Shown: piece by piece, positions 13,148-20,534 of the stretch
Layout of the letters: every line of letters starts with the position of its first letter
Numbering within the stretch: position 1 is the stretch's first letter
Origin: Bacteroidota bacterium
Lineage (GTDB): Bacteria; Bacteroidota; Bacteroidia; Chitinophagales; Saprospiraceae
Assembly: GCA_030147525.1 (NCBI GenBank)
Contig: JASBVF010000002.1
Coordinates: forward strand, 248,001-312,000
Length of the DNA stretch: 64,000 nucleotides
Direction of reading: 5' to 3'
Position numbers and translations under genes: made by a program
Notes under the pieces: generated by a model
Database searches by the model: none
The model's input: the letters and a program-made list of their open reading frames with translations, nothing else
Told to the model about the DNA's origin: nothing

Positions 13148-13399
13148 TCAACAGTAGAAATTTTTCAGCTCCAGCCCATCCACTCTGACCAAATGGTCGA
13201 GGCGGATTTCATGGCCATCAGGCAAAAGTAAAAATTCCTCGCTGTTGCGGGTGTACAGGTCGGCAATTTCAGCGGTAACGCTCACCTCCGTTCCCTCATC
13301 GTTGCGATAACGGATTTCAACAGGTTTGCGCCGTAAGGCCCGGAGTTCCAGTTCGGAGTGAAAGTCGCAGGAGATGGGCTGGTAAGACTTATTGGCCAT
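13148..13399 (-). CDS. Rof/YaeO-like protein (Rho-binding antiterminator family)
   Basis: 83 residues from the ATG at 13399; the frame reaches back to 13459 but only this start gives the family opening YQPISCDFHSELELRALRR. The rest follows the Rof pattern of a small five-stranded Sm-like barrel: VEIRYRNDEG, VTAEIADLYTRNSEEFLLL, DGHEIRLDHLVRVDG. In E. coli Rof binds Rho and inhibits termination. In this family outside Proteobacteria the role is less certain. It heads the run rof-MOSC-ATP-grasp-LysE. Confidence 0.7.
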   Translation of the reverse strand: MANKSYQPISCDFHSELELRALRRKPVEIRYRNDEGTEVSVTAEIADLYTRNSEEFLLLPDGHEIRLDHLVRVDGLELKNFYC

Positions 13400-13516
13400 G
13401 TTGTTTTTTTTAAAAAAAAGATGCTGACAAAACGCCTTCCACTTAAAAATGGTTGCCAACCAACGTGCTGCGAGCAGGTTTTTAAATGATTTTCAATTTT
13501 TAGACTCATCTAAATT

Positions 13517-13547
13517 TTTGATTTGATAAACAATAAAATTACTTTTG
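13517..13547 (+). promoter_or_regulatory. Consensus promoter of the TonB receptor gene
   Basis: TTTG (13517-13520), a 19-base spacer and TACTTTTG (13540-13547) match the Bacteroidota housekeeping promoter exactly. The distance of 21 bases to the ATG at 13569 supports that start over an earlier one at 13545, which would overlap the -7 box. Confidence 0.75.
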
Positions 13548-13568
13548 CGGCAACTAAAGATTGTGATC

Positions 13569-15842
13569 ATGAAAGTTTTCGCCACTATAATTTTTTCACT
13601 CCAGATCAGCCTCTGCCTTGCCCAGTCAGGCAGTTTGACCGGAAAAATAACTTCCGCAGACAAGCCAGTGCCATTTGCCTACGCCGCCATCGAGCAGTTG
13701 AACCTTGGCAGTATGGCGGACGAACGTGGAAATTTCACCCTGAAAAACCTGCCCGAAGGCCGCTTCACCCTGAAGACGACGAGCCTGGGATTCATGCCGG
13801 CCAGCCGGGAAGTGGTTATTTCAAAAAATAAATCCCAGCACGTAGAAATCCAGCTGACTGAAATGCCGTTCGCCCTCAACGCCGTCGTCGTATCGGGCAC
13901 CCGAACCGAGCGGCGAAGGTTGGACAATCCCGTCGCAGTGAATGTGCTTACGGAGTCGGCATTTCAGGTAACTCAATCGAATACCCTGTCGGAGGGCCTT
14001 TGCTTCCAGCCGGGCCTGCGGATGGAAACCGACTGCCAGACCTGCAATTACACACAACTGAGAATGAACGGATTAGGCGGCGCCTACAGCCAGATACTGG
14101 TGGACAACCGCCCGGTTTTTACCTCGCTGATGAGCCTCTACTCGCTGGAACAAATCCCCGCTTCGCAGATCGAGCGGGTGGAAATCGTGAAAGGCGGCGG
14201 GTCGGTGCTCTACGGTTCCAGCGCCATTGCCGGTACGGTGAACGTGATCACGAAAATACCGGACAAAAACTCTTGGTCGCTGTCGCAAAACTCATCGCTC
14301 ATTGACGGGGAGGCGCCGGATCATTTTTTTAACGGCAACGCCACCATACTCAACGAAGAAAAAAATGCAGGCGTGAGCATTTTCGCCTCTCACCGAAACC
14401 GCCGGGAATACGACGCCAACGGCGATGGATTTTCTGAATTGCCGAAGCTTCGAAACAATACCTTCGGTTTTAAAACTTTCCTGAGACCTGACGCCCGCCA
14501 CTCCCTCGAACTCAATGCCTGGAGCATCCAGGAATTCAGGCGGGGCGGTAATGCCTTCGACCTGCCCGCCGACCGGGCTGATCAATCGGAGGAACGCAAC
14601 CAGCAGATTTTGCTGGGAGGGCTGGATTACCGGTTCACGCCAACGTCCGGCTTTTTTAACCTCAACGCCTACCTCGCCGGGCAAGTAACCACCCGGACGC
14701 ACTACACCGGCATCGATCAGGCCGATGGCTGGGGCAATACTGACAGCAAAACCCTGACCGGCGGCCTGCAAATCAATCGTAACCAGCCGCTGCTGAACCG
14801 CCCGAACACGCTCACACTCGGTATCGAACACCAGCACGACGATACTTTTGATGAAATTGCTGCCTACGGCTACCTCATCGACCAGGTGACGGATCTCACG
14901 GGCCTGTTCCTGCAAAGTGACTGGGAGGTGACTCCCAAGCTGACGCTGCTGTCGGGTCTGCGTTTCAACAAACACAATTTTGTGGATGAAATCATCACGA
15001 CGCCCCGCCTCAGCGCATTGCTCAAACCGGTTGAAAACCTGCAACTGCGAGCCTCCTACGCCCGTGGTTTCAAAGCGCCGCAGGCTTTCGAGGCCGACAT
15101 GCACATCACTTTTGCAGGCGGTGGCGTGGCGCTCACCGGCTTCGACCCGAATCTCCGGCAGGAGACTTCCAGCAGCTACACCGTTTCGCTCGATTTCAAC
15201 CGGCCAAAGACGAACTACATCTATGGTTTCACGCTGGATGCCTTCCACACCCGGTTGTTCGATGCATTCGTACTGGAAGAAACGGGGACTGACGACCAGG
15301 GTAACATTCGCCTGCTTCGCAAAAACGGCGGCAATTCCACTGTGCAGGGCGTGACACTGGAAGGGCGTTTTAATTACGATCAAATCATCCAGTTGCAGGG
15401 CGGACTTACGATACAGTCTTCCCAATTTGACGACCCAATTGCCTGGTCGGCAGAAATACCCGGCACCAAAGACTACCTGCGCACACCGAACCGCTACGGT
15501 TTTTTCACCCTGAGTATTTTACCGGAAAAAAATCTGAATGGCTCATTGTCAGGCGTCTACACCGGACCGATGCAAGTGCCGCATTTCGGCGGAGCGCCGG
15601 GCGTGGAGCGGGATGTGCTGTTCCGGTCACCGGATTTCACCGAAATCAATTGCAAGCTGAACTACCAACTGCACCTCCACAGCATGGAGACAGACCTGGA
15701 ATTCTCTGCGGGCGTGCAGAACATTTTCAACGCCTACCAGTCCGATTTCGACACGGGCAGGTATCGTGACAGCAACTACATCTACGGCCCGGCGAGGCCG
15801 AGAACTTTTTTTGTAGGGGTGAAATTTAGTGCCGCCGATTAA
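13569..15842 (+). CDS. TonB-dependent outer-membrane receptor
   Basis: 757 residues: signal peptide (MKVFATIIFSLQISLCLAQ), carboxypeptidase-D-like regulatory domain (about 22-105; GSLTGKITSADKPVPFAYAA), plug domain (about 110-230, with VVSGTRTERR, ETDCQTCNYTQLRMNG, VEIVKGGGSVLYGSSAIAG) and a 22-strand barrel to the end (RTFFVGVKFSAAD). It imports a ligand scarce in the environment using TonB energy. There is no SusD partner, so polysaccharide uptake is unlikely; the plug is like those of BtuB/CirA/FecA-type metal, cobalamin or siderophore receptors. A two-component system follows directly and may control it. Confidence 0.9.
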   Translation: MKVFATIIFSLQISLCLAQSGSLTGKITSADKPVPFAYAAIEQLNLGSMADERGNFTLKNLPEGRFTLKTTSLGFMPASREVVISKNKSQHVEIQLTEMPFALNAVVVSGTRTERRRLDNPVAVNVLTESAFQVTQSNTLSEGLCFQPGLRMETDCQTCNYTQLRMNGLGGAYSQILVDNRPVFTSLMSLYSLEQIPASQIERVEIVKGGGSVLYGSSAIAGTVNVITKIPDKNSWSLSQNSSLIDGEAPDHFFNGNATILNEEKNAGVSIFASHRNRREYDANGDGFSELPKLRNNTFGFKTFLRPDARHSLELNAWSIQEFRRGGNAFDLPADRADQSEERNQQILLGGLDYRFTPTSGFFNLNAYLAGQVTTRTHYTGIDQADGWGNTDSKTLTGGLQINRNQPLLNRPNTLTLGIEHQHDDTFDEIAAYGYLIDQVTDLTGLFLQSDWEVTPKLTLLSGLRFNKHNFVDEIITTPRLSALLKPVENLQLRASYARGFKAPQAFEADMHITFAGGGVALTGFDPNLRQETSSSYTVSLDFNRPKTNYIYGFTLDAFHTRLFDAFVLEETGTDDQGNIRLLRKNGGNSTVQGVTLEGRFNYDQIIQLQGGLTIQSSQFDDPIAWSAEIPGTKDYLRTPNRYGFFTLSILPEKNLNGSLSGVYTGPMQVPHFGGAPGVERDVLFRSPDFTEINCKLNYQLHLHSMETDLEFSAGVQNIFNAYQSDFDTGRYRDSNYIYGPARPRTFFVGVKFSAAD

Positions 15843-15854
15843 ACATTGTCTGTA

Positions 15855-15876
15855 CTTCTAATCGTTTTTTAATGAG
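15855..15876 (+). promoter_or_regulatory. Candidate response-regulator binding site upstream of the regulator gene
   Basis: A 22-base element starting CTTCTAATC with two TAAT cores 11 bases apart. The same element recurs at 17969-17990 with 17 of 22 positions identical. Tandem half-sites one helical turn apart are what OmpR-family regulators bind, so autoregulation is plausible. Confidence 0.45.
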
Positions 15877-15908
15877 TTCCCAATGTGATATGCTTCAATT
15901 TTGCAGTC

Positions 15909-16613
15909 ATGAAAATATTACTCATTGAAGACGAAAAGAAAATCGTGTCCGTCATCAGCCGGGGATTGAGCGACGAAGGCTTCAATGTTCAGGTTGCCTA
16001 CGACGGGGAAACGGGGCTGGCCATGCTTCGGGAAAGCAACTTCGATGCGATCGTACTGGATGTCATCCTTCCGAAGCTCAATGGCTGGGAAGTCTGCCGC
16101 CAGGTGCGAGCCATTCCGGAAAAAAAGCAGACCCCCATACTGATGCTGTCCGCCCTGACCAACACCGACAACGTGGTGAAGGGGCTGAACATGGGCGCCG
16201 ACGACTACCTGGCCAAGCCTTTCAAATTACAGGAATTAGTCGCCCGGCTCAAAGCGCTGAACCGCCGGACCGGAACCGGAACCTACCAACCAGAACCTGC
16301 CACCCTCTCCTACGCCGATATTGTTTACAACCTTGATACGAAAGAGGCTTTTTGTAAGAATGAAAAACTAAACCTCACCCGCCGTGAAGTAAACCTGCTG
16401 GAGTTTTTTCTAAAAAACCCAAACCGGGTGCTTTCCCGCTACGATATCCTGGACCGGGTTTGGGGCCTTGATTTTAACCCCGGCACCAACGTTGTGGATG
16501 TGTACGTCTGCTACCTGAGGGCTAAACTCGACAAAGCACTGGGTTACCGCCTGCTGCATACTTCAACAGGCATGGGCTACATATTCAGACTCGAAGATGA
16601 AATTGCGAAATAA
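15909..16613 (+). CDS. OmpR/PhoB-family response regulator
   Basis: 234 residues from the ATG at 15909, where the receiver domain begins (MKILLIEDEKK). Acidic residues E7/D8, the phospho-acceptor D51 (AIVLDVILP) and the conserved lysine in YLAKPFK are all present. A winged-helix output domain fills residues about 130-230 (LTRREVNLLEFFLKNPNRVL, VWGLDFNPGTNVVDVYV). The gene overlaps the histidine kinase gene by 17 bases, so the two are translationally coupled. It follows the TonB receptor by 66 bases, a gap that contains a candidate autoregulatory site. Confidence 0.93.
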   Translation: MKILLIEDEKKIVSVISRGLSDEGFNVQVAYDGETGLAMLRESNFDAIVLDVILPKLNGWEVCRQVRAIPEKKQTPILMLSALTNTDNVVKGLNMGADDYLAKPFKLQELVARLKALNRRTGTGTYQPEPATLSYADIVYNLDTKEAFCKNEKLNLTRREVNLLEFFLKNPNRVLSRYDILDRVWGLDFNPGTNVVDVYVCYLRAKLDKALGYRLLHTSTGMGYIFRLEDEIAK

Positions 16614-17964
16614 GATAGCACTGACGTTCAGCCTGCTCTCGTCGGGGCTGCTGTTTGTCATTTGCACATTTTTTTACCTGCTGCACGCCCGAAATACCCG
16701 TAACGATTTCCTCCAGCGACTGACGGAACGGGCTGAAATTGCTGCCCGTGCCTCACTCGAAAAAGACGAACTCAGCCAGCGCATTTACGATGAAATCATT
16801 AACAAACATTTCAAAACGCTGCCGCAGGAGCGGGAATATTTTATACGCATCGACAAAGATGTGCCGAGGCCGAACCTGCCCGCCGAAATCACAGACTCCT
16901 TCCTCACAGAAGTTGCCAAAAATGAATCCGCTGAGTTTTATTCCGATGGCAAGGCCGCCGTTGGCATTCATTACGACGATAACCAGGGCACGTTTCTCGT
17001 CATTGTTACCGCTACGGACGAAGATGGCATCGAGGCGCTGCAAAATCTGCGTTTTGTTTTTCTGGTCATATCCCTGCTGTACATCATTGCCATTATTTTT
17101 ATCAGTTTCTGGTTTGCCCGGGAAACACTCGGACCAATCGCCCGGATCATTGAAAAAATGGAAAACATCAATGCTTCCAACCTTCACCTCCGGCTGGAAA
17201 TCAAGCGGAAGTCACAGGATGAGCTTAGCAGAATGATCCATACTTTCAACTCCATGCTCGACCGGCTGGAAACCTCCATTGAGGCGCAAAACCAATTTAT
17301 CAGCAACGCTTCCCATGAATTAAAAACGCCGCTGACCGCCATCCTGGGTGAAGTGGAACTCTCGCTTGCCAAACCCCACGACCAAGCCTATTTCCGAAAA
17401 TCGATGGAAACAATAGAGGAGGAAGGCACCCGTATGCAGAACATTATCCTGCGGCTGCTGCGACTGGCTCAAACTTCGGGAAGCCAGCCGGAAAAGTTTT
17501 TCGCAGATGTGAGAATTGATGAGTTGCTGATGGATATTCTGGAAGAAATTCATGCCCTCGACCCCGGACGAAAATACCATGTCGACTTCGACAACCTGCC
17601 CGCCGATCCGCAACAGCTGATCATTCAGGCGAATCGTCCGCTGCTCCGCATTGCGCTGACCAATGTGATTGAAAATGCATTCAAGTTTTCTGAAAATAAA
17701 CTCGTGACCGTCATCCCGAAAATTTTAAAAGATCAGGTAAAAATTGCGGTGCTTGACCGGGGCCCCGGCATATCGGAGGAGGATATCCCGTACATTTTTG
17801 ATCCATTTTTCAGGGCTGAATCCGTCCGGCACCTGCCCGGCTTTGGCATTGGTTTGCCGATGGTTCAGAAAATTGTGCGCCTGCACGATGGCAGCATCGA
17901 GGTTTTTTCCAACCCTTTCAGCGGCGCTACTTTCACGATCAGACTGCCCCGCCGTACGTTCTAA
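16597..17964 (+). CDS. Sensor histidine kinase (HAMP-HisKA-HATPase)
   Basis: 455 residues. Two membrane helices (about 8-28 and 148-172) flank a periplasmic sensor of about 120 residues; then a HAMP linker, the HisKA helix with phospho-accepting H240 (SNASHELKTPLTAILGE), and an HATPase domain with an N box (NVIENAFKFSENK), G1 box (DRGPGISEED) and G2 box (GFGIGLPMVQKIV). It should sense an envelope signal and phosphorylate the regulator encoded by the overlapping upstream gene. The neighbourhood of a TonB receptor suggests a metal or nutrient ligand. The stop is followed within 5 bases by the second copy of the shared 22-base motif. Confidence 0.93.
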   Translation: MKLRNKIALTFSLLSSGLLFVICTFFYLLHARNTRNDFLQRLTERAEIAARASLEKDELSQRIYDEIINKHFKTLPQEREYFIRIDKDVPRPNLPAEITDSFLTEVAKNESAEFYSDGKAAVGIHYDDNQGTFLVIVTATDEDGIEALQNLRFVFLVISLLYIIAIIFISFWFARETLGPIARIIEKMENINASNLHLRLEIKRKSQDELSRMIHTFNSMLDRLETSIEAQNQFISNASHELKTPLTAILGEVELSLAKPHDQAYFRKSMETIEEEGTRMQNIILRLLRLAQTSGSQPEKFFADVRIDELLMDILEEIHALDPGRKYHVDFDNLPADPQQLIIQANRPLLRIALTNVIENAFKFSENKLVTVIPKILKDQVKIAVLDRGPGISEEDIPYIFDPFFRAESVRHLPGFGIGLPMVQKIVRLHDGSIEVFSNPFSGATFTIRLPRRTF

Positions 17965-17968
17965 TAAT

Positions 17969-17990
17969 CTTCTAATCTCTTTATAATAAT
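17969..17990 (+). promoter_or_regulatory. Second copy of the candidate response-regulator site
   Basis: Starts CTTCTAATC and keeps TTTnTAATnA, matching the site at 15855-15876 at 17 of 22 positions with the same 11-base TAAT spacing. It lies just after the kinase gene and upstream of the envelope-protein gene at 18169, marking that gene as a likely target. Confidence 0.45.
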
Positions 17991-18057
17991 CTCTTAAAGC
18001 TACGCCTGCCTGAGCCCCACATCTTTGCATCGCAAACATTAAATCAACCTCCCGAAC

Positions 18058-18129
18058 GCCGGCAACGAATGCAAGGGCAAAGTTGCCGGCCCCGTTTTGC
18101 TCCATCCTGTACTGATCATTGGATGGAGC
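18058..18129 (+). other. Two tandem hairpins in the leader of the envelope-protein gene; the second is terminator-like
   Basis: Stem 1 has perfect 9-bp arms GCCGGCAAC (18058-18066) and 18082-18090. Stem 2 has perfect 9-bp arms GCTCCATCC (18099-18107) and 18121-18129 and is followed by AGTTTTATT. The pair could terminate the two-component operon or attenuate the gene at 18169. No -7 box is seen between the second hairpin and that gene's start. Confidence 0.5.
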
Positions 18130-18168
18130 AGTTTTATTAATCAAAAAAAAAATAAAAGGTTTTATCCT

Positions 18169-19041
18169 ATGAAACGATTCTCACTCACAGTTTGTCTGTG
18201 CCTGTTTTTTTGTGTCAGCGTTTTTTGCCAAAGCTATGAAAACGAAGAAGAGGACCCACAGCTACCAGCCAAAGTGCTGCATGCCGAGCCGCTCTTCATC
18301 GACCTGATCCGGGATTTGGGAGCCCGGAAAGGAGAAAAGGAATGGAACGTCGGAGCTGCCCTCGTTGACCGTGGCCAGTTCGATAGTTACGAGTTTCTTG
18401 TTGAGTACGAATGGGCAGTAAAAGACCGGTGGGGCCTGGAAGTCGAAGTGCCTGTCAGCATTTTCACCCAATCTCATTACGCAGGGGCGAGCGACATCAC
18501 AACGCCCCGCCCTAAAAAACCATCCAACAGGGTCGAGAGCCTGAAATTTGCCACGCAGTACACTTTTCTGGTATCTGAGCGAAGGCAGGCCTCGCTCGCC
18601 CTTGGGGCTATCACCGAGCTGGAGTTTACCGATCTCGATGTCATTCAGCTGAACAATACATTTCAAGGTGTCCTATTCAATCCGTTTTTTATTGGAGCGA
18701 AACGGTTGGGGCCTAACTGGCATTCCTTAATTTACACAGGCCCCCGCCTGCTCTCTCACTTTGGTCATTCGGGACTGGATTTATCTTATGAAATCAACTC
18801 CAACGTCCACTACATGATCCCCGGCACCCGGAATTTTGTCGGGATGGAAATCAACAAGGAACTTGCCGAGGGTCATCTTTATGCCACCCTCCGCCCACAG
18901 ATGCGACTGACAATTCAGGATAATTTACTGGTAGGTATTGTATCCGGCATTCCTCTGAACAAGGAAAATGAAAGGCTCAGCGCCTTTCTTCGCTTGATTT
19001 ATGAGCCGGGACATCGCAAACATCACGGCTCAGGTCATTGA
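18169..19041 (+). CDS. Predicted outer-membrane/envelope protein, function unknown
   Basis: 290 residues from the ATG at 18169, where a signal peptide begins (MKRFSLTVCLCLFFCVSVFC); the frame extends upstream to 18097 but would run through the leader hairpins. The mature N-terminus holds a conserved-looking block, HAEPLFIDLIRDLGARKGEK, followed by repeated amphipathic beta segments and Gly/aromatic-rich strands, as in a small beta-barrel. It ends with a His-rich tail (GHRKHHGSGH) that could bind metal. It follows the two-component system and shares the candidate regulatory site with it. Homologues with this HAEPL block probably exist in other Bacteroidota but their role is not known to me. 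Confidence 0.6.
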   Translation: MKRFSLTVCLCLFFCVSVFCQSYENEEEDPQLPAKVLHAEPLFIDLIRDLGARKGEKEWNVGAALVDRGQFDSYEFLVEYEWAVKDRWGLEVEVPVSIFTQSHYAGASDITTPRPKKPSNRVESLKFATQYTFLVSERRQASLALGAITELEFTDLDVIQLNNTFQGVLFNPFFIGAKRLGPNWHSLIYTGPRLLSHFGHSGLDLSYEINSNVHYMIPGTRNFVGMEINKELAEGHLYATLRPQMRLTIQDNLLVGIVSGIPLNKENERLSAFLRLIYEPGHRKHHGSGH

Positions 19042-19121: not shown

Positions 19122-20462
19122 TCACAGCCCGTATTCCTCGATTTTTCGGTATAAAGTAGCGATACCGATTCCGAGGAATTCGGCTGCTTTTGTTTTATTC
19201 CCCTTGGTATAGGCGAGTACTTTTCGGATGTGAAGCTTTTCCATTTCAGCCAGCTTCAGCGCATCTTCCGGGTTGCCGGACTCTGTGTACTGAAAATCGA
19301 AGGGCAGGCAATCCAGCGTAAGCTCATCGCCGGAGGCAAGTATGACGGCCCGCTCGATGATATTTTTCAACTCACGGATATTGCCCTTCCAGGGATGGTT
19401 GACCAGGGCTTTTTGAAATCCCTCTTCCATGCCGAGTGGCTTCAGATTCATTTTGGCAGTAAACATATCGATGAAATGTTTTGCCAGCAACGGAATATCA
19501 TTTTGGCGCTCCTGCAGAGAGGGAAGTTTGATGCTGAAAACGGAGAGGCGGTAAAACAGGTCGAGGCGAAAATTACCTTTTTCACTTTCCGCCTGCAGAT
19601 CCCGGTTGGTGGCAGCGATGACACGTACGTCCACTTTCGTCTCCTTGGTTTCACCTACTTTCAGGAATGTTCCCGTTTCGAGTACCCGCAGGAGTTTGGC
19701 TTGCAGGGTGAGGTCCATTTCACCAATTTCATCCAAAAAAATAGTGCCCTCGTGGGCTTCTTCGAAAAGACCGGTTTTATCCCTCGTGGCTCCGGTGAAT
19801 GAGCCGGATTTGTGGCCGAACATTTCACTTTCCAGAATTTCCTTGCCGAGTGCGCTGCAATTGATGGCCACGAACGGCTTTGACCGCCGCTGACTTTCGG
19901 AGTGGATCGCTTGCGCAAATACCTCCTTGCCGGTTCCTGTCTCGCCGGTGAGTAGCACCGTGGTACCGGTTGCAGCTACTTTTTTGGCCATGTCGATAGC
20001 GTGGAGCATGGGTTTCGACTTACCAACGATTTTATCGAAACTGTGCCGTTGCTCGCTTACCTGTTCTTCCAGTTCATGCACCCGGAATTGCAGGAGCGCT
20101 TTGTCCACTGCCCGGCTGACGAGGGGGATGATTTTGTTATTATCGTCGCCTTTGGTGATGTAGTCGAAGGCGCCGCCTTTGATGGCCGTTACGCTGTCAG
20201 GGATGGTACCGAATGCCGTGAGCAGGATGACTTCGCTCTGCGGGCTGAGTTCCTTGATTTTGGGAACCATTTCGACGCCGTTGGCATCCGGAAGTTTGAC
20301 GTCGCAGATGATGGCGTGGATTTTTTCCTGTTCCAGAATTTTCAACCCTCGCTTGCCCGTTTCCGCCTGGAAGACCTGATAGCCCTCCAGCCGGATGATA
20401 CGGCTGAGGAGGTTGCGGATGTCGTTTTCGTCGTCAATGATGAGGATGTTGGCTTTGGACAT
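19122..20462 (-). CDS. NtrC-family sigma-54-dependent response regulator
   Basis: 446 residues from the ATG at 20462, where the receiver begins (MSKANILIIDDENDIRNLL). The phospho-acceptor is D54 (AIICDVKLP). The AAA+ domain spans about 150-385, with Walker A GETGTGKE, the sigma-54 contact loop GSFTGA (GAFTGA variant) and Walker B TIFLDEIGE. A Fis-type helix-turn-helix closes the protein (GNKTKAAEFLGIGIATLYRK). It would activate sigma-54 promoters when phosphorylated. No partner kinase is adjacent in this window. It lies downstream of the 928-residue T9SS protein gene, from which it is separated by a strong hairpin. Confidence 0.93.
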   Translation of the reverse strand: MSKANILIIDDENDIRNLLSRIIRLEGYQVFQAETGKRGLKILEQEKIHAIICDVKLPDANGVEMVPKIKELSPQSEVILLTAFGTIPDSVTAIKGGAFDYITKGDDNNKIIPLVSRAVDKALLQFRVHELEEQVSEQRHSFDKIVGKSKPMLHAIDMAKKVAATGTTVLLTGETGTGKEVFAQAIHSESQRRSKPFVAINCSALGKEILESEMFGHKSGSFTGATRDKTGLFEEAHEGTIFLDEIGEMDLTLQAKLLRVLETGTFLKVGETKETKVDVRVIAATNRDLQAESEKGNFRLDLFYRLSVFSIKLPSLQERQNDIPLLAKHFIDMFTAKMNLKPLGMEEGFQKALVNHPWKGNIRELKNIIERAVILASGDELTLDCLPFDFQYTESGNPEDALKLAEMEKLHIRKVLAYTKGNKTKAAEFLGIGIATLYRKIEEYGL

Positions 20463-20481
20463 GCTTTTTTGAATGATGAAC

Positions 20482-20534
20482 GATGAACGATGAATGATGA
20501 ACGGGGCTGCAAAGTTCATCATTCATCGTTTATC
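20482..20534 (-). terminator. Long inverted repeat between the T9SS cargo gene and the NtrC-type gene
   Basis: Arms of 21 bases (20482-20502 and 20514-20534), built from GATGAA-like words, pair at 20 of 21 positions around an 11-base loop. It lies 15 bases after the stop of the gene ending at 20550 and just upstream of the start at 20462. Confidence 0.65.

Follow-up and report, generated by a model that had tools for sequence, protein, structure and literature searches.

Operators of the PhoB/OmpR type consist of direct repeats of 7 bp plus a 4-bp spacer and lie upstream of the core promoter and in phase with it. Here, we analysed a locus that invites comparison with these operators, namely an OmpR-type response regulator, its sensor kinase and a gene of the HAEPLYID family (NF041634) in a 64,000-nt stretch of a Saprospiraceae genome (Bacteroidota; GCA_030147525.1, contig JASBVF010000002.1, 248,001–312,000). 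The window below means this whole stretch, and coordinates are window positions; the host genome (7.08 Mb) is labelled G000, and L, G and C numbers denote loci, genomes and contigs. By profile score, the closest curated subfamily of the two-component pair is the heavy-metal type (CusRS/CzcRS; TIGR01387/TIGR01386), whose domain order is the same. In the open-access literature we found no description of HAEPLYID function or regulation, and nothing relevant on direct-repeat operators of this kind or on SulP, carbonic anhydrase or bicarbonate under a Bacteroidetes response regulator or kinase.

The original prediction had combined the two-component pair, a histidine-tailed envelope protein encoded at 18169 and the preceding TonB-dependent receptor into one regulon that answers to one ligand. 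We favour, at a probability of roughly 60%, a self-contained regulator-kinase-HAEPLYID cassette at 15843–19041, in which tandem boxes would drive a HAEPLYID channel for anion or bicarbonate homeostasis, while the TonB receptor is separate. This proposal is built on the sites, their conservation and fixed phase, the gene association and the absence of the cassette in congeners, from which we infer binding, activation, ligand and channel function.

Tandem boxes at the regulator and kinase genes

The features of the cassette are as follows.

15857–15874, forward strand: putative two-box operator of the regulator gene, TCTAATC (15857–15863) and TTTAATG (15868–15874), 11 bp apart, from the sequence
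15896–15903, forward strand: probable −7 element CAATTTTG of the regulator promoter, assigned from the sequence by the consensus TAnnTTTG
15909–16613, forward strand: OmpR-type response regulator with REC and Trans_reg_C domains (Pfam PF00072, PF00486)
16597–17964, forward strand: sensor histidine kinase with HAMP, HisKA and HATPase_c domains (Pfam)
17960–17999, forward strand: putative four-box operator TCTAATA/TCTAATC/TATAATA/CTTAAAG with a period of 11; box 1 holds the kinase stop codon, and boxes 3 and 4 are degenerate
18020–18027, forward strand: probable −7 element CATCTTTG of the HAEPLYID promoter, 20 nt past the last box, from the sequence and phase comparison
18169–19041, forward strand: HAEPLYID family protein with a signal-peptide-like N-terminus and a predicted 12-strand outer-membrane barrel (NF041634, structure model)

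A 22-bp site common to the regulator promoter and the region after the kinase gene had been proposed, and this part of the original prediction holds. The 22-mers CTTCTAATCGTTTTTTAATGAG (15855–15876) and CTTCTAATCTCTTTATAATAAT (17969–17990) share 17 of 22 bases, with TAAT cores 11 bp apart, and the genome-wide search that had been suggested as a check returned only two exact matches to CTTCTAATCN6TAAT in 7.08 Mb, both at this locus, with none for the reversed control. A relaxed two-box pattern gave 6 matches in the same genome compared with 8 for its control and was dropped. The 22-bp sites are part of a larger scheme of 7-bp boxes (TCTAATC) repeated at an 11-bp period, with two boxes ahead of the regulator gene and four ahead of the 18169 gene, the second 22-mer being part of the four-box array.

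This scheme recurs among related systems. At a period of 11, 27 of 44 related regulator-kinase rows have a four-box array with a score of at least 20 behind the kinase; at the periods 8, 9, 10, 12, 13 and 14, none of the 44 does. In the controls, such arrays were found at 4 of 303 other open reading frame (ORF) ends and in 0 of 880 shuffles; the four (L138, L197, L199 and L209) score 20.6–21.7, and those of L199 and L209 lie just 5′ of regulator genes. At a threshold of 19, an array follows the kinase in 29 of 46 rows, and 13 of these 29 begin with the first box across the kinase stop codon. As part of the 44 rows had been fetched due to array or HAEPLYID matches, the rows picked by regulator similarity alone form the fairer set, and 10 of these 20 (19 loci, L190 counted twice) carry an array of at least 19. 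Of 46 related regulator genes, 12 have an upstream site of the two-box type with a score of at least 11.5, where the 99% quantile of the background in 400-bp stretches is 11.3. The original prediction placed direct repeats for an OmpR-type regulator both in the regulator's promoter and at the 18169 gene; this is supported, and such a pairing is seen again in other Bacteroidota families.

PMC7366714 gives TAnnTTTG as the Bacteroidota −7 consensus. Among 40 array promoters, 19 contain a strict TAnnTTYG within 45 bp; 18 of them have it at a distance of 9, 20 or 31 nt (9 mod 11), and CATCTTTG of the window, at 20 nt, falls in the same helical phase. Judged by these positions, the helical phase between the arrays and the TAnnTTTG box of the promoter is fixed.

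A receiver and Trans_reg_C regulator with an adjoining HisKA/HATPase kinase places the pair in the OmpR/PhoB family, and the tandem direct repeats are the kind of candidate operator expected of it. The likeness to PhoB/OmpR-type operators covers the OmpR-family DNA-binding domain, the 11-bp period of the direct repeats and their position upstream of the core promoter and in phase with it. The locus differs in its box (TCTAATC), in the numbers of boxes at regulator and target, in the first box that crosses the kinase stop codon in the 13 arrays mentioned above, and in its Bacteroidota −7 element.

In the regulator tree, the window regulator groups with relatives linked to HAEPLYID, to SulP or to no target in a clade of 8 rows (97/89), including L173 (SulP) and L013 and L015 (HAEPLYID); the fork without L019 is weaker (82/83), and the window branch is long (0.84). 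All 30 array-bearing rows have DVY in the recognition helix, while the array-less L187–L191 have EVY. This correlation is incomplete: L020 and L028, which lack an array after the kinase, also have EVY, and several other rows are array-less yet have DVY. Strong arrays stand directly after the kinase in L172, L140 and L141 with no clear protein-coding target; these arrays may be followed by a small gene or an RNA. The host genome carries a third regulator pair, on G000:C51 (L136), with the array TTTAATT/TTTAATT/TTTAATC/TTTAAAT after the kinase and no obvious target gene.

The HAEPLYID protein and its leader

The 18169 gene product scores 366.1 bits against NF041634 (cut-off 125), which makes it a member of the family, and matches no Pfam family. 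Among 100 genomes, 7 have a match to the HAEPLYID profile and 4 of these are above the cut-off. A scan of a species-representative collection gave 362 related stretches, the best 80 of which were kept and, together with three from relatives, form a neighbourhood set of 83 loci. Unlike the window protein, most examined members have no such arrays. The histidine tail is not a trait of the family: it is restricted to 2 of 50 members (at least four His in the last 12 residues), the window protein included.

A structure model from 50 sequences (predicted local distance difference test, pLDDT, 88; predicted template modelling score, pTM, 0.80) has 12 barrel strands and supersedes an earlier, poor model from 4 sequences (pLDDT 58). 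FapF (Z 22.1) and the COG4313 channel (Z 21.7) are its nearest structural matches (5o65, 4rl8). In the model, the likeness is that of a 12-strand barrel aligned across some 224 residues (Z about 22), at a sequence identity of 11–12% between the aligned chains; fold alone permits no inference of function. In a tree made by a quick method, the array-linked proteins mostly form one 11-row clade (Shimodaira–Hasegawa-like approximate likelihood ratio test 96), in which one row, L025, has no array. The array-linked L059, L077/L078 and L079 fall outside this clade, which suggests that array control was captured repeatedly by HAEPLYID genes.

The promoter is followed by a long leader with two hairpins.

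18058–18090, forward strand: leader hairpin 1 (RNA folding)
18097–18131, forward strand: leader hairpin 2 with an 11-bp stem and a 13-nt loop, then GTTTTATT (RNA folding; absent from the terminator-scan list)

Both hairpins of the original prediction fold (minimum free energy −41.9 kcal/mol, z −4.03, 0 of 200 shuffles as stable), and by reading no TAnnTTTG box was seen between hairpin 2 and the ATG, also as predicted. The description of hairpin 2 as terminator-like is doubtful, given its 13-nt loop and a run of U that is broken; it was also missing from the results of the terminator scan, whose loop limit is 8. Rfam gave no match for the leader at the gathering threshold. A dispersed repeat was ruled out, as the full-length leader occurs only here in the genome. 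In most array-bearing relatives only a few dozen bases separate the −7 box from the start codon, so that leaders are short and the long leader of the window looks lineage-specific.

Partners of the arrays and the proposed role of the cassette

A related regulator lies nearby in 10 of the 83 HAEPLYID loci, and several gene orders join HAEPLYID to SulP. In L014 the order is regulator, kinase, array, HAEPLYID, SulP and Usp, with a 4-bp overlap of HAEPLYID and SulP, and in L079 and L083 it is regulator, kinase, six boxes, a small gene, SulP and HAEPLYID. L052 carries SulP, carbonic anhydrase and HAEPLYID, and in L077 and L078 a Usp-like gene precedes HAEPLYID (the Usp-like protein of L077 has no Pfam match). 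In other genomes, arrays after kinases also stand ahead of SulP with carbonic anhydrase. In the host genome, a second related regulator, on G000:C54 (L135, 6270–9569), accompanies a four-box array ahead of SulP and carbonic anhydrase, with the kinase on the strand opposite to the regulator. In other systems, the combination of SulP and carbonic anhydrase is a pointer to bicarbonate.

A scan for the exact three-box pattern in 41 genomes of Pontibacter, the genus of G102 (L016), found it in 39 genomes at 53 places, 1–4 per genome. Among the 52 places examined, 36 are ahead of SulP, all beside a kinase end, 7 are ahead of HAEPLYID and 9 are other, including L330, a Usp-like gene and a CusC-like gene (the last two named by reading); the remaining place, G103:C33, is by its coordinates some 190 bp ahead of a SulP. 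In G102, G103, G104, G107 and G110, every zero-mismatch array of the genome is ahead of SulP or HAEPLYID.

Some neighbouring genes were recorded alongside. A pyruvate-carboxylase-like gene, named by reading, lies near HAEPLYID and 3′ of it in L016 (9980–13423, Pontibacter), and in L330 (G122) a HAEPLYID-type array is retained at the site that holds HAEPLYID in relatives and stands ahead of such a gene, with no HAEPLYID gene found there; pyruvate carboxylase is a bicarbonate user. In L013 (5026–5240, G033), a deletion or an assembly artefact has left only the end of a HAEPLYID gene downstream of the kinase-linked array.

In the proposed mechanism, the phosphorylated OmpR-type regulator would bind the tandem 7-bp boxes spaced 11 bp apart. 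The two boxes at its own promoter would confer autoregulation, and the four boxes downstream of the kinase, which share a helical phase with TAnnTTTG, would support class-II activation of HAEPLYID. The product, modelled as a 12-strand outer-membrane channel, may then carry out the outer-membrane part of a response that keeps anions or bicarbonate in balance. This role seems the most likely one because SulP operons elsewhere, also with carbonic anhydrase and the host genome included, appear to be under operators of this type and related regulator pairs; an inorganic-carbon role of HAEPLYID is what we infer from it. Further, and only tentatively, HAEPLYID proteins under arrays might be dedicated outer-membrane inorganic carbon (bicarbonate) channels, co-regulated with SulP and beta-carbonic anhydrase by a Bacteroidota-wide, CO2/bicarbonate- or pH-sensing two-component family with the four-box/11-bp scheme, the window cassette being a moved copy of the outer-membrane arm.

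Several observations weigh against the cassette proposal. SulP could carry another anion, and since an MgtC/MgtE-like pair (L181) and CusC-like genes (L210), all named by reading, have similar arrays ahead of them, the box alone does not fix function. No clear array lies directly 5′ of the gene in 67 of 80 HAEPLYID loci (L029 set aside), and in 42 of 83 a small unrelated protein gene of two sequence types lies upstream on the same strand (a copy in L010, 7737–8123, has no Pfam match). The window array scores 19.4, below most others, with the degeneracy of boxes 3 and 4 noted above, and the box weights for array scoring were set only after the sequences had been inspected. At two recognition-helix positions that elsewhere are nearly always Asn and Asn/Lys, the window regulator carries Cys and Ala, which calls for caution on cross-binding, and its nearest relatives, L172, L140 and L141, are those with arrays and no clear target. 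Bestrophin, a candidate regulon member suggested by L196 and L205, was rejected, as 0 arrays of at least 20 were found upstream of 21 bestrophin ORFs in genomes located via PF25539 (in 8 further loci no ORF was recognised by the motif).

The TonB-dependent receptor and the rival explanations

The flanks of the cassette hold the following features.

13499–13514, forward strand: palindrome TTTAGACTCATCTAAA 5′ of the TonB receptor, a putative separate control unit (ortholog conservation, genome search)
13569–15842, forward strand: TonB-dependent receptor, judged to lie outside the cassette (Pfam, ortholog neighbourhoods)
19122–20522, reverse strand: sigma-54 (NtrC-type) response regulator, which adjoins the receptor in cassette-free congeners (Pfam, ortholog neighbourhoods)

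Receptor orthologs occur in 22 of 100 genomes. In three congeners, L258, L259 and L260 (receptor identity 70–72%), the receptor adjoins the NtrC-type gene with no cassette between them, at gaps of −4 (stop codons overlap), 9 and 436, respectively. The order in L258 (MOSC, ROF, receptor, NtrC-type gene and a 928-aa gene) is that of the window minus the cassette. In the window, the cassette lies between two unrelated convergent genes. The ROF-like (Rho-binding antiterminator) small protein of the window (13151–13459) scores 22.8 bits, below the Pfam cut-off of 27.6. The flanks of the 15 other fetched receptor orthologs, up to about 1.5 kb a side, contain no cassette-type regulator-kinase pair. 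Guanine plus cytosine content over the cassette is about 0.48–0.53, and no shift that would mark foreign DNA was found; parsimony favours a gain of the cassette in the window lineage over a loss elsewhere.

Upstream of the receptor, the best pair of TCTAATC-type boxes reaches 10.4, compared with the 99% background quantile of 11.3. The palindrome TTTAGACTCATCTAAA is conserved in the 13 aligned of 16 fetched orthologs (L255–L257 left out), and its pattern TTTAG-N6-CTAAA, which we take to be a DtxR/MntR-type site, occurs without mismatch at 2 places in the genome, the receptor and an operon of a Fe_dep_repress/FeoA (DtxR-type) regulator and ZnuA (L263). As in DtxR/MntR metal regulons, a likeness that concerns the TonB receptor only, the palindrome is common to the receptor and the regulator's own operon. 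The receptor is a separate unit, probably under a DtxR/MntR-type metal repressor, and it forms with the DtxR-type regulator-ZnuA operon a probable two-target metal regulon. Against the heme receptor profile TIGR01785, it scores 93.2 bits, below the cut-off of 316.85. No paper on the DtxR family with TonB in Bacteroidetes was found in the open-access literature.

These results bear directly on the single metal-responsive regulon of receptor, regulator pair and His-tailed protein. The genes adjoin, with only a 66-bp gap between receptor and regulator, and the nearest NCBIfam subfamily of both regulator and kinase is of the heavy-metal type. Yet these scores stay below the cut-offs (195.2 vs 279.2 bits for TIGR01387 and 182.5 vs 292.55 bits for TIGR01386), the cassette-free orthologs and the receptor's own box-less promoter and palindrome separate the receptor from the rest, and the His tail is not conserved. 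The grouping of the regulator with the 18169 gene stands, the inclusion of the receptor does not, and the regulon as a whole is already largely refuted and barely credible. A Cus/Czc-type metal-stress system, with HAEPLYID as a metal channel or efflux aid, fares somewhat better but is still unlikely. It draws on the same top NCBIfam scores, the related pair and array ahead of CusC-like genes in L210, and the copper transporter PcoB among the fold matches (Z 12.9). Against it, as against a metal ligand for the system, stand the sub-threshold scores, a cassette with no metal gene, and targets that are mostly HAEPLYID and SulP, the recurrent companion, often with carbonic anhydrase.

The stable paired structure is in favour of regulated attenuation of HAEPLYID by the leader hairpins. 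Short leaders in most relatives, the uniqueness of the leader in the genome, the interrupted U run and the lack of an Rfam match speak against it; attenuation is unsupported, and we consider a regulated attenuator quite improbable. The 11-bp arrays might also be a general promoter-architecture or AT-rich element rather than the operator of the adjoining regulator, as several paralogous regulator pairs use such arrays and each genome has more of them elsewhere. They are, however, rare (1–4 exact places per genome in 39 of 41), period-specific and tied to kinase ends, and they are absent after the EVY-helix regulators L187–L191, which makes this explanation very unlikely.

The widespread HAEPLYID family, of no known function and with 362 related stretches in one species-representative collection, obtains a regulatory context here, and the operator grammar can be scanned across Bacteroidota to tie orphan kinases to their targets. 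The nearby TonB receptor is set apart into a probable DtxR/MntR metal regulon, and the sensing and import of inorganic carbon by heterotrophic Bacteroidota becomes a question that a two-target regulon makes testable.

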